Source: an uncultured Eubacteriales bacterium
GTDB lineage: Bacteria; Bacillota_A; Clostridia; Christensenellales; Aristaeellaceae
DNA: 10,954 nt
NCBI GenBank assembly: GCA_900553645.1
Contig: USEE01000023.1
Location: 1-10,954, forward strand
Reading direction: 5' to 3'
Below are positions 5,009 to 8,466 of the stretch, one piece after another. Positions within the stretch are counted from its first letter, which is position 1. The number at the start of each line of letters is the position of its first letter. Under the pieces are notes generated by a model, which was not told the origin of the DNA, did no database searches, and saw only the letters and a program-made list of their open reading frames with translations. The position numbers were made by a program, and so were the translations under genes.

Positions 5009-5051
5009 CACAGCGCAGACCGATTGGACACGGTCTGCGCTGTGTTTTTTT
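5009..5051 (+). terminator. strong intrinsic terminator after the DUF1275 gene
   Basis: A perfect 14-bp stem pairs CACAGCGCAGACCG (5009-5022) with CGGTCTGCGCTGTG (5031-5044) around an 8-nt loop, followed by seven T (5045-5051), G and four more T. The orientation suits transcripts coming from the DUF1275 operon, leaving a 3' untranslated region of about 180 nt. There is no matching A-tract on the left side, so it is not bidirectional. Confidence 0.9.
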
Positions 5052-5099
5052 GTTTTCAGGCAGGTAGGCGCGGACTGCATTACTCGCATATGCCTTAAC

Positions 5100-5315
5100 C
5101 TGAGCGATGCCTGCGCTTGTCTTTCGCAAGGCAGGATAGTTTAAGGCGGTTGGTGCACAACATTTTGTGTACCAACGGTTTTGAGGCAGTTGTGCACAGT
5201 CTGCGCTTCATACATCCGCCTTAGCCAAGGGCAATATTTGCGCGGATGACCCGCATATCTTTTTCGCAAGGCAGAATATGCCAATGCTGTTGGTATAAAA
5301 AGTTTTATGCGCTTG
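5100..5315. repeat. diverged direct duplication, about 140-bp period
   Basis: TTTCGCAAGGCAG occurs at 5122-5134 and 5262-5274, exactly 140 bp apart. After it the two copies stay in register without gaps: GTTGGT (5149, 5289) and TTTTGAG (5179, 5319) are both spaced identically. Upstream, GATGxCxGC also matches in register. The left copy carries a 12-bp hairpin, GTTGGTGCACAA / TTGTGTACCAAC (5149-5176, one G-T pair). The right copy has ATAAAA-AG-TTTTAT at the same place. Outer arms TAAGGCGG (5142) and CCGCCTTA (5216) could enclose the left hairpin. The repeat is much decayed, and its nature is unknown. Confidence 0.55.
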
Positions 5316-5477
5316 TGATTTTGAGAATTGCGCTGCACTCAAATAGCACGTTCTAAGCAGCACACATGAAGTTTTGCCTTAGCAACTTACAATGGCCTAT
5401 GCCCTGCCCTATGCCTTATAAAAAATCATTTAAGGCGCACAGCGCGCCGCCGCCTTAACCGCCTTTCAGGGCATAAC

Positions 5478-5507
5478 AAAATCCCCGACGAACATATTCG
5501 CCGGGGA
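5478..5507 (-). terminator. intrinsic terminator of the PTE-rich protein gene
   Basis: On the minus strand, TCCCCG, one mismatch and CGAA pair with TTCG and CGGGGA around a 4-nt loop (5482-5507), followed by TTTTGTT (from 5481 leftward). It lies 20 nt after the stop at 5528. Confidence 0.8.
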
Positions 5508-5527
5508 CATTGCGTTTGGTTTGCTTA

Positions 5528-7579
5528 TCAGCTCTTACGCTTCTTGCTCCACATGTAGAGCACTATGCCTATTACTATCAGCACGATCGCTATTACGAAG
5601 TACCAGCCGCTGTTGAAGCTGCTCTGCGCGGGTTCGGCGGTAGGCGCTTCGGTCGGAGCTTCAGTCGGCGCTTCCGTGGGGGCCTCGGTAGGCGCCTCGG
5701 TCGGAATCAGCGTCGGCTCCTCGGTGGGCGCTTCCGTGGGCACATCGGTGGGAATCGCGGTGGGTTCCGCGGTCGGCTCGTCGGTGGGAACCTCGGTGGG
5801 TTCTTCGGTCGGGGCTTCGGTGGGTTCTTCAGTGGCCGCGGTCGTGGGGGCCGGGGTCATGTATACCACGTCGCCCGCCACAACGCCCTGTACGCCCGCC
5901 TGAGCCAGCGCCATCTCGTCCTGAGCGCTTACCACATACTGACCGTCCGCAGTGGGAGTATACGGTACGAAGGCCACGGCGGCCGCGTCGGTCGAGGCCT
6001 GCTCGACCACCTGAGCGGCTTCCTCGTCGGTATAGCCGTTTTCCTTCAGGAAGTCGCCCAGCTCATCAATGCTGTAAGCGTCCTCAACCTGCTCGGGCAG
6101 CAGCAGCACGCCGAACGTTGCGCCGTCGGCCAGCGCGGGCTGAACGTCCATCTCGGGCGCTGCGGTCGCTTCCTCGGTGGGAGCTTCGGTCGCAGAGTCG
6201 GCTGCATTGGCGCTGGGTTCTTCCGTCGGGATTATCGTGGGCGCGGCGGTGGGTTCGTCGGTCGCAGTTTCGGTCGGAGCTTCGGTCACGGCCTCAGTCG
6301 GAGCTTCGGTCACTACCTCGGTGGGCGCGTTGCTGGGCGCGAGCGTGGGCAGTATCGCCTCAATGTCGCTGCCTGCCACTACGCCGCCCTCCAGACCTGC
6401 GGCGGCGATAACGTCGTATGCGGCCGGTTCGACGCTCAGCGTGCCGTCGCTTTCGGCCACGGCGGGCGCGTACATAGCCCAGTTATAGTCGGTCACGCCC
6501 TCGGGCAGCAGCGCGATGAGCGCCGCGTCGATCTGATTGAGCGTGTAACCGGCGTTTTGCAGCATCTGGCTAAGGTCGTCGGCGGTAAATACGCCGTCTG
6601 CCTGTGCGTCGGATTCCGTCGCGGGCACTGCGATTATCGTCAGGCCGTTTTCAGTGCTCAGCAGGTAACTGGCTGGCTTCTGCGGCGCGGCGGTGGGTTC
6701 TTCAGTGGGTTCTGCCGTGGGCTTTTCGGTAGGCTCGGCAGTAGGTTCGACGGTCGGTTCCTCAGTCGGCTCTGCGGTAGGTTCCTCAGTCGGCTCAACA
6801 GTAGGCTCCTCAGTAGGCTCAGCAGTAGGCTCCTCGGTAGGTTCGGCTGTCGGTTCAGCAGTAGGCTCCTCGGTCGGTTCGGCCGTGGGTTCTGCCGTCG
6901 GCTCCGCGGTAGGTTCGGGAGTCGGCTCCGCAGTCGGTTCGGGAGTCGGCTCTACATACTCGTACACATGCACGGGCGCAGCGCCGTCCTTGCGCACGAT
7001 CTCCAGCATGGTGTCGGCGTTCTTCACGTCCGAGGTGAGCAGCGTCGTCAGCTCGAATGCGTCGGCGGCGTACATATCAACATGCTGTGCGGCCACGTCA
7101 AACGCGATCACGCCGTCAACCGCGCCCTCGGGCACGTCGATGTGCTTTGCGCTCACGTAAAAGGGCGGCTGGAATTCGCTTTCGTCGGCGGTATCAGCCG
7201 CTTCGGAAGGCTCGGCATCCGTCGTTTCGGCGGGCGCGGAGGTATCGCCTACAATCACGGTATTTGCATCGTAGGTCATGAACATGTAGCTTTGAGTAGT
7301 GCCGGGCACGGCGGCGGTAATGGCCGCGATCATGTCGGCGGTCAGGCCACAGGCGGTCAGAGTATCTTCCATAGTATTGAGCGCTTCCGCGTCGTCCAGC
7401 CACTGGTTGAGCAGCAGCAGCGCGCCGTACTGAACATCGGCGTATTCGTTTTCGCCGGGCAGTTCGGTTTCGGCCTTGTCCTTTTGCTGAACCGCATACG
7501 CTGACATGGGCGCAAGCAGGCATATCATGAGCGCCACAAGCACGGCGGCGGCTCTTGCAAACGTACTATCCCTGCGCAT
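5528..7579 (-). CDS. secreted, C-terminally anchored Pro-Thr-Glu-rich protein with three related modules
   Basis: A 683-residue surface protein of no family I can name. It has a signal peptide (residues 1-29; basic MRRDSTFAR, hydrophobic core, SAYA cleavage site) and a C-terminal membrane helix (about 658-676) followed by WSKKRKS. There is no LPXTG, so it is probably membrane-tethered with its body outside. Three globular modules (about 48-115, 308-408, 488-575) are separated by spacers of PTEP/EPTA/APTE repeats at 210-299, 416-475 and 576-650. The modules share a pattern: a hydrophobic strand (LLLL/IIAVP/VLLLP), an acidic helix ending in (G)YT or GLT, then a SYMFMTY, YNWAMY or AFVPY strand. 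The second and third also share AGLEGGVVAGSD / AGVQGVVAGD. Start: ATG at 7579, because AAGGAG (7588-7593) is 8 nt upstream; the GTG at 7588 overlaps that site. Monocistronic. Function unknown; adhesion or envelope-stress sensing are guesses. Confidence 0.88.
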   Translation of the reverse strand: MRRDSTFARAAAVLVALMICLLAPMSAYAVQQKDKAETELPGENEYADVQYGALLLLNQWLDDAEALNTMEDTLTACGLTADMIAAITAAVPGTTQSYMFMTYDANTVIVGDTSAPAETTDAEPSEAADTADESEFQPPFYVSAKHIDVPEGAVDGVIAFDVAAQHVDMYAADAFELTTLLTSDVKNADTMLEIVRKDGAAPVHVYEYVEPTPEPTAEPTPEPTAEPTAEPTAEPTEEPTAEPTAEPTEEPTAEPTEEPTVEPTEEPTAEPTEEPTVEPTAEPTEKPTAEPTEEPTAAPQKPASYLLSTENGLTIIAVPATESDAQADGVFTADDLSQMLQNAGYTLNQIDAALIALLPEGVTDYNWAMYAPAVAESDGTLSVEPAAYDVIAAAGLEGGVVAGSDIEAILPTLAPSNAPTEVVTEAPTEAVTEAPTETATDEPTAAPTIIPTEEPSANAADSATEAPTEEATAAPEMDVQPALADGATFGVLLLPEQVEDAYSIDELGDFLKENGYTDEEAAQVVEQASTDAAAVAFVPYTPTADGQYVVSAQDEMALAQAGVQGVVAGDVVYMTPAPTTAATEEPTEAPTEEPTEVPTDEPTAEPTAIPTDVPTEAPTEEPTLIPTEAPTEAPTEAPTEAPTEAPTAEPAQSSFNSGWYFVIAIVLIVIGIVLYMWSKKRKS
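5630..5854 (-). repeat. third PTE-rich repeat spacer (codons about 576-650)
   Basis: Degenerate tandem codons for TEAP/TEEP/TDEP units, 12 bp per unit, ending in five near-identical PTEA units just before the membrane helix. Such a juxtamembrane stalk would lift the modules off the membrane. Codon variation between units argues against a recent expansion, except in the last PTEAPTEAP run. Confidence 0.85.
6155..6334 (-). repeat. second PTE-rich repeat spacer (codons about 416-475)
   Basis: An irregular spacer (APTEVVTEAPTEAVTEAPTE, then DEPTAAPTIIPTEEP) linking the second and third modules. It is less regular than the other two tracts, mixing valine and alanine, which suggests older, more drifted units. 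Confidence 0.8.
6683..6952 (-). repeat. first and longest PTE-rich repeat spacer (codons about 210-299)
   Basis: About 22 tandem four-residue units of the form (A/E/P/V)EPT, 12 bp each. Serial CGGTnGGnTC-like motifs appear on the plus strand. The tract is highly regular, in frame and prone to slippage by 12 bp, which would change stalk length without a frameshift. Confidence 0.9.
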
Positions 7580-7633
7580 CGTTATCACTCCTTCAAATAC
7601 TACCCGCCGCGCTGGATAATTGCGGCAGGTTCC

Positions 7634-7815: not shown

Positions 7816-8427
7816 TTACTCAACCGGGAAATCGAAGTAGGTATTGGAGTAAGGCTCGTTAGCGAGATTATAGTGCCACCACTCGCAGGAGTATGGCTTA
7901 AACCCGGCGCGGCCCATTATGTCGCGCAGGAGGTTGCGGCGCGCGGTCGCTTCAGGAGGCACCAGCAGGCTATCGTGGTGGGACGCGTCATCCATGAAGT
8001 CAAAGCAGGTGCCCATATCGAGCGGCTGGCCATCCATATCTGTAAGCGTGAGATCGACGGACGAGCCGCGGCTATGGCCGGACGAGTGGGCTATATAGCC
8101 CAGTTCGAACAATTGAGACTTATCCACGTTAGGGTAATGGCGGGCTTTGGTGCGGCCGTCCTCGGGACGACTGGCCCAGTCGGCGAAGCAATTGACCGCG
8201 CGCACGGGGCGGTACGCGTCCCAGACGAGCAGGCCGTAACCCTGTTCGTTTGCGATTTTAAGTGCGCGTTCGAGGCCGTCGGCCATTTCGAGCGTACCCA
8301 CGGCGGTATTGCGCAGGTAGCCCGTCACATTTTTGCCGGTGAAATTCTCGGAAAAATAATAGGCCGAACACACCTTTAGACCAACTACGCGCGATTCAAG
8401 ATTGCAAAAACCCTCAGGCAATGGCAT
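7816..8427 (-). CDS. D-alanyl-D-alanine dipeptidase (VanX/DdpX-type, M15D)
   Basis: A 203-residue zinc peptidase of the VanX/DdpX family, which cleaves D-Ala-D-Ala into D-alanine. Catalytic features are all present: the substrate-binding arginine in DAYRPVRA (R73), zinc ligands H118 and D125 in SGHSRGSSVDLTL, and E182 with H185 in CEWWHYN (general base and third zinc ligand). There is no signal peptide, so it is cytoplasmic as in VanX. Length is normal. The ATG at 8427 is preferred: AGGA lies 10 nt upstream, whereas the GTG at 8436 touches that site. No vanH/vanA ligase or VanRS genes lie nearby, so housekeeping turnover of D-Ala-D-Ala (peptidoglycan recycling, or D-alanine as nutrient) is more likely than glycopeptide resistance. 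It diverges from the HD hydrolase gene across 39 bp. Confidence 0.95.
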   Translation of the reverse strand: MPLPEGFCNLESRVVGLKVCSAYYFSENFTGKNVTGYLRNTAVGTLEMADGLERALKIANEQGYGLLVWDAYRPVRAVNCFADWASRPEDGRTKARHYPNVDKSQLFELGYIAHSSGHSRGSSVDLTLTDMDGQPLDMGTCFDFMDDASHHDSLLVPPEATARRNLLRDIMGRAGFKPYSCEWWHYNLANEPYSNTYFDFPVE

Positions 8428-8430
8428 AAT
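8402..8430 (+). promoter_or_regulatory. promoter of the HD hydrolase gene, inside the start of the VanX gene
   Basis: TTGCAA (8402-8407) and CATAAT (8425-8430) are 17 bp apart, with transcription starting near 8437. The -35 and spacer lie within the first codons of the divergent VanX-type gene and the -10 covers its start codon. The 39-bp gap leaves no other room. Confidence 0.5.
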
Positions 8431-8466
8431 AGACACATCCTTTTCATATTGGGAGAGTAATTAATC

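Follow-up and report, generated by a model that had tools for sequence, protein, structure and literature searches.

Here we describe a predicted surface protein encoded on a 10,954-nucleotide stretch of DNA (the window; contig USEE01000023.1 of assembly GCA_900553645.1, from an uncultured Eubacteriales bacterium of the class Clostridia, probably belonging to its order Christensenellales), in which sequence comparison supports three modules as homologous copies of one small, unnamed domain. The modules are carried on presumably stiff Pro-Thr (PT) stalks, with a signal peptide at one end of the protein and a membrane helix at the other. The protein is the product of an open reading frame (ORF) of 683 amino acids at positions 5528-7579, as a first-pass annotation of this DNA had stated, and is encoded on the minus strand of the window. 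The domain is unnamed in the Pfam and NCBIfam libraries that were searched and is rare in the samples searched. The reading that we favour, at roughly even confidence, is that a single-span, wall-crossing surface protein displays three related, folded, trypsin-poor domains. The parts of the gene, all on the minus strand, are as follows.

5528..7579, minus strand: whole gene, 683 amino acids, with an ATG start at 7579 and a stop codon at 5528-5530
7490..7579, minus strand: signal peptide from hydropathy, residues 1 to ~30, with AYA-V as the apparent cleavage site by eye
7265..7438, minus strand: first part of module 1 (residues ~48-105), comprising a strand, two helices and a strand
7169..7264, minus strand: acidic insert in module 1 (residues ~106-137), mostly without predicted structure
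7064..7168, minus strand: second part of module 1 (residues ~138-172), carrying VDGVIAFDV
6953..7063, minus strand: strand/helix region (residues 173-209), present only after module 1 and loosely alignable to the relative L081
6671..6952, minus strand: stalk 1 (residues 210-303), PTxE repeats
6350..6670, minus strand: module 2 (residues 304-410)
6131..6349, minus strand: linker 2 (residues 411-483), less regular PT/EA repeats
5849..6130, minus strand: module 3 (residues 484-577)
5624..5848, minus strand: stalk 3 (residues 578-652), proline at every fourth residue in 581-652
5531..5617, minus strand: membrane helix ending in a short basic tail, SKKRKS (residues 655-683), without an LPxTG motif

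Modules 2 and 3, which the annotation had aligned with each other, give a local alignment score of 75 against a mean of 32.5 for shuffled sequences (0/2000 shuffles reach it). Module scores were set against 2000 shuffles that preserve composition and against 4454 natural segments drawn from all long open frames, spurious ones included. A one-sequence hidden Markov model (HMM) of module 3 scores 16.2 bits on module 2, a value reached by none of the 2000 shuffles and none of the 4454 natural segments, and the HMM of module 2 scores 13.6 bits on module 3 (reached by 2/2000 and 0/4454, respectively). Module 1 had been described as shorter, ending at residue 115; this has to be corrected, since its second half (~138-172) sits past the acidic insert (~106-137), where its VDGVIAFDV pairs with VQGVVAGDV. 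Alignment of modules 1 and 3 gives z 2.2 with the insert and z 7.1 with the insert removed, the latter value being inflated because the cut was picked after the match had been seen.

Related genomes were reached through the neighbouring DUF711 gene, for which at least 592 of 597 stretches were confirmed and the best 80 kept; among these, the closest DUF711 gene (78%) lies in the genome designated G001. A sample of 396 genomes from the same order as G001 yielded, in one genome, a diverged relative of the surface protein (L081, 34% identity), seen as module 1 and a stalk only because its gene runs off the end of the contig. At this identity L081 keeps the patterns GLT.D and VDGVIA.DV, and it has an Ala/Glu/Pro/Thr-rich insert at the same place as the acidic insert of module 1. 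A profile of module 1 and L081 with inserts kept scores 21.3 bits on module 3 (0/2000 shuffles, 0/4454 natural segments), and hhalign of this pair on module 3 with the inserts cut gives E 1.9e-6. As a single sequence, module 3 scores 12.8 bits on L081 module 1 (0/2000 and 0/4454) and 9.3 bits on uncut module 1 (3/2000 and 6/4454). L081 module 1 alone scores 16.6 bits on module 3 (0/2000 and 8/4454), and its Ala/Glu-rich insert may attract biased segments.

Direct comparison of modules 1 and 2 is not significant (local alignment p 0.28; a second test p 0.08 uncut and 0.13 cut), and the corresponding HMM score is reached by 601/2000 shuffles. A profile of modules 2 and 3 misses module 1 (330/2000 shuffles and 160/4454 segments reach the score) and is weak on L081 module 1 (70/2000 and 50/4454), while the profile of module 1 and L081 is weak on module 2, both by HMM (9.7 bits; 2/2000 shuffles, 7/4454 natural segments) and by hhalign (E 0.0057, probability 6%). 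Because modules 1 and 2 are not matched directly, the case for a triplication depends on module 3 as the connecting copy. Thus, of the relationships that the first-pass annotation proposed among three modules, and for which it suggested profile self-alignment as a check, those between modules 2 and 3 and between modules 1 and 3 are significant, but the direct one between modules 1 and 2 is not.

A strand-helix-helix-strand arrangement is predicted at all three module positions in the full-length model, rather than the disordered or unrelated folds that were named at the outset as speaking against a common domain, although the confidence of this model is very low. Modelled as a separate piece with the other modules as alignment rows, module 3 again gives strand-helix-helix-strand, with a predicted local distance difference test (pLDDT) score of 66.9 and block means of 73-86 over its residues 11-60. 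The domain could not be named previously, and this still holds: no module has a curated Pfam match above cut-off, the best being DUF5961 on module 3 (16.6 bits, cut-off 25), and none has an NCBIfam match above cut-off in a scan of the whole protein and modules 1-3, L081 being outside that scan.

The protein has, on sequence features alone, the export signal and C-terminal membrane helix of a membrane-anchored surface protein, and hydropathy places two long hydrophobic stretches at residues 4-32 and 653-681, where both elements had been expected. The regular PTE spacers reported earlier are found in stalk 1 and stalk 3, in which proline spacing is exactly four in 20/24 and 16/16 spacings, respectively, but linker 2 is less regular (exactly four in 5/11, a multiple of four in 10/11). 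The PT repeat PF04886 is the only family above cut-off in a Pfam scan of the whole protein (122.4 bits against a cut-off of 26.2, E 5e-36, five stretches). The signal peptide, Pro-Thr-rich stalk and proline step of four are shared with other surface proteins stalked on this repeat, and exported proteins of the family of genome G402 carry similar stalks with other domains; the window protein differs in that its domains reach the cut-off of no Pfam or NCBIfam family, are homologues of one another and are almost without Lys and Arg. With sortase-anchored (LPxTG) wall proteins it shares a C-terminal hydrophobic helix and short basic tail, but it contains no LPxT[GAN] motif (the sequence ahead of the C-terminal helix is AEPAQSSFNSGW) and its matches to the sorting-signal models of NCBIfam are no better than E 0.03-0.12, under the cut-off, so that a plain membrane anchor is the simpler reading. 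The C-terminal part of the haloarchaeal S-layer glycoprotein NF041335 likewise has a Thr-rich stretch followed by a membrane helix, and it matches residues 618-672 with a family E-value of 3.5e-7; however, the score is 28.7 bits against a cut-off of 1100, and composition explains the match because it is limited to stalk and helix.

According to the display model, the signal peptide would export the protein, and the C-terminal helix and basic tail would hold it in the membrane. Stalk 3, of ~75 residues, would take the protein across the wall; beyond it, linker 2 and stalk 1 would space the modules outward, placing module 3 nearest the cell and module 1 farthest; a growing distance from the membrane would follow from this order of parts. 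An extended polyproline helix measures ~0.3 nm per residue, and ~20 nm is about the thickness of the wall. If extended at this rise, stalk 3 would span ~20 nm, with linker 2 and stalk 1 each adding about as much. The modules share a predicted core of strand, helix, helix and strand and, close to the end, a G-V-x-A-x-D motif. Their likeliest role would be repeated binding of one kind of partner, providing multivalent binding or a shield. Three copies of one domain at different heights would suit either multivalent attachment or an acidic coat in layers. Surface proteins with modules on stalks are a familiar type, and the multi-module adhesins of Gram-positive bacteria display several related domains on a long stalk across the wall, as the window protein is proposed to do, but no known adhesin domain was detected in it by the Pfam and NCBIfam scans. 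The modules would offer an orphan domain that is defined and can be expressed, from a lineage that has received little study.

A further property of the protein is the scarcity of basic residues outside the membrane. The ectodomain (residues 31-652, 622 residues) holds 9 Lys+Arg against 129 Asp+Glu, and the 329-residue ectodomain of L081 holds 1 against 93. Modules 1 (129 residues) and 3 (97 residues) each contain a single Lys or Arg, and module 2 (111 residues) and L081 module 1 (148 residues) contain none. Among 81 other exported-looking proteins, collected from fetched loci by a rough signal-peptide rule with L081 copies removed and proline-rich windows excluded, 4/484 windows of 100 residues hold one or fewer Lys+Arg (mean 8.6), and 67 of the 4454 open-frame segments do so in their first 100 residues. 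As comparison windows are seldom so low, the depletion is unusual, and it is common to two diverged members. If the organism is gut-living, as its relatives suggest, the most likely benefit would be an ectodomain with almost no trypsin site that repels other acidic surfaces, and trypsin may then be the cause of the depletion. That Lys and Arg are nearly absent also from a relative at 34% identity provides a simple testable idea on how exposed surface proteins could survive host trypsin. The most far-reaching form of this proposal we regard as unlikely: the modules would be a new extracellular domain family, seen to date in two species, whose copies were selected to lose nearly all Lys and Arg, making a folded, repeated binding domain trypsin-proof in the intestine, and the lack of trypsin sites in ectodomains would be a widespread but unnoticed means by which gut commensals protect their surface proteins. 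Among the papers listed in a thin literature search, none concerned this protein or surface proteins free of Lys and Arg.

Several observations weigh against the display of folded, trypsin-poor domains. Many exported proteins of the family of G402 that are otherwise unrelated have PT/EA stalks, so that stalks say nothing specific. A low Lys+Arg content (2.6%) is also seen in L089, an exported protein that likewise has a PT-type stalk, and a general acidic bias, stalks included, could explain the low Lys+Arg content as well as trypsin does. The full-length model is poor, with a mean pLDDT of 39.9 and 569/683 residues below 50, and the separate model of module 3 is of middling confidence, its last 17 residues being unreliable. 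Finally, no solved relative emerged from a PDB sequence search with the module profile A3, which returned 16 sequences up to E 10; the best of these are designed helical repeats, matching the helix pair in several weak copies, and were rejected.

Ranked next is the proposal that the modules are passive and that the protein is an acidic brush, acting as a spacer, a shield or a sponge for cations or cationic peptides, in which the modules merely stiffen or thicken the structure. We consider this possible, if somewhat improbable; were the modules merely spacers, the protein would be one more lineage-specific surface protein. The acidic excess of the ectodomain, 129 Asp+Glu to 9 Lys+Arg, fits a brush, as do the ~240 ectodomain residues that make up stalks and linkers, and the single diverged relative found is what might be expected if the sequence were little constrained. 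However, conservation within and beyond the species speaks differently. Two nearly identical proteins, P0002 and P0003 (99% across the query; P0003 from a Christensenellales metagenome-assembled genome), taken as the same species as the window, differ from the window protein by 1 and 2 changes over residues 31-209, none of them inside 48-172, so that module 1 is unchanged in all three. This, together with the GLT.D and VDGVIA.DV patterns kept in L081, suggests a folded, constrained domain. Over residues 300-410, the region of module 2, there are 6 and 7 changes, two sequences being too few for a claim of faster module 2 evolution, and stalk 1 measures 90, 94 and 98 residues among the three proteins. 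It should be noted that P0002 ends in 37 residues that agree, at 35/37 positions, with a different frame of the window gene: in this record a frame shift inside linker 2 leads to loss of module 3 and the anchor, either as a strain difference or as an assembly error in the repeat.

A different suggestion assigns the module to the ClpS / ribosomal L7/L12 C-terminal fold (beta-alpha-alpha-beta-alpha-beta), as a remote, exported relative turned to peptide binding. This concerns the fold and is compatible with the other readings, but we find it doubtful. ClpS heads a weak list of structural matches for the middling-confidence model of module 3, and the order of strands and helices is similar. Nevertheless, there is no significant sequence relation: hhalign to three L7/L12 domains gives E 0.06, and the ClpS (PF02617) and Ribosomal_L12 (PF00542) families are unlisted for the whole protein up to E 1 and for the modules up to E 10, the latter listing being limited in that HMMER filters drop most matches above ~0.1. 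ClpS and L7/L12 are moreover cytosolic proteins, unlike the window protein, which appears to be exported and is acidic and repeated. A search of a viral fold library returned 0/251 matches at E <= 0.001. A separate protein, at L127:1360-1947 (G473:C62), which is also matched by profile A3, begins like a zinc ribbon and has a domain that weakly resembles L7/L12 (PF00542 at E 0.07, under the cut-off).

That there is no true three-copy family, and that an acidic, biased sequence is self-similar through its composition, modules 2 and 3 being the sole real duplication, is very unlikely: the biased overall composition, the missing direct match of modules 1 and 2, the 8/4454 natural segments (against 0/2000 shuffles) that reach the score of L081 module 1 on module 3 and the full-length model with 569/683 residues below pLDDT 50 are outweighed by 0/2000 composition-preserving shuffles in each of three comparisons (module 1 with L081 on module 3, module 3 on module 2 and module 3 on L081 module 1), by the motifs that L081 keeps across 34% identity and by the block means of 73-86 in the module 3 model.

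The rarity of the domain was seen in several overlapping samples. Protein-database searches gave 0/598 candidates at E <= 1 for residues 486-580 (module 3), 2/2503 for residues 36-212, both being the near-identical proteins, and 0/3549 with the L081 protein; these empty answers are of limited weight because the search misses proteins whose length falls outside 0.55-1.75x that of the query, as well as any without a 5-residue word in common with it. Nucleotide scans for module 1 confirmed none of 2 pattern matches in viral contigs and none of 18 in genome contigs, and the module 1 region had no match in 12 genomes. In the 396 genomes of the order of G001, 3 matches were found at E <= 0.01, of which L081 is real and L082 and L083 are by eye one unrelated surface protein. 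Profile A3 found 46 matches at E <= 0.05 in 300 genomes of the family of G001, only L081 being strong; the matched stretches of 29 other places that were fetched score 12.6-15.6 bits, about ten being ParB-like by eye and the rest unnamed except L127. The same profile gave 2 matches at E <= 0.003 in the 396 genomes of the order, the second (L148) by eye a chain-length regulator, and L081 alone in 245 genomes of the class. In 308 genomes of the family of G402, the window module 1 gave 3 matches, including L085 and L086, by eye a glycoside hydrolase and ClpB, and L081 module 1 gave 17 places in 16 genomes. No further convincing relative was found in these family, order and class samples (308, 300, 396 and 245 genomes). 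The genes beside L081 on its contig match no neighbour of the window gene, and the short segment after its first stalk, compared as a module 2 remnant, was not significant.

Of the 16 places other than L081 in the family of G402, 13 have stalk-like frames, picked by composition and in 11/13 cases of the matched frame's length, which seem to be unrelated exported proteins with PT/EA stalks; L093, L097 and L099 have no such frame. The loci L088-L103, which come from a stalk-biased search, have PT/EA-rich stalks in 13/16 cases; by eye, the domains attached to these stalks are peptidoglycan-binding, L,D-transpeptidase-like, amidase-like and foldase-like.

Two further features flank the surface gene.

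7588..7593, minus strand: ribosome-binding site AAGGAG, 8 bases before the ATG start
5481..5508, minus strand: terminator-like hairpin just past the stop codon, of 12 pairs followed by a T-rich tail

The ATG at 7579 is favoured over an in-frame GTG at 7588 because AAGGAG lies 8 bases upstream of the ATG and is overlapped by the GTG. The argument for the hairpin as a terminator is its position only, since the region has 4 terminator-like sites against a shuffled mean of 4.6, not above chance. An M15 dipeptidase gene on the same strand ends 236 bases ahead of the start codon, and from this gap we infer that the surface gene is probably its own transcription unit. The M15 peptidase (7819-8436, minus strand) is close to VanX-type D-Ala-D-Ala dipeptidases and scores 251.5 bits against NF033115, under the cut-off of 320; the Pfam and NCBIfam scans of window genes revealed no further van gene. 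A 349-residue protein at 1732-2778 on the minus strand reaches the cut-off of no Pfam or NCBIfam family and, by eye, contains several hydrophobic stretches. A scan of the window with Rfam at gathering thresholds and for tRNAs gave no match. In the non-coding-looking stretch at ~5046-5480 the word TTTCGCAAGGCAG occurs twice, at 5122-5134 and 5262-5274, these being its only two copies in the window with both strands counted. At 54-1699, on the minus strand, an ACT-domain gene lies directly before the DUF711 gene, and an ACT match just ahead of DUF711 is present in 15/15 loci of a list sorted by shared neighbours, indicating a widely kept pair.
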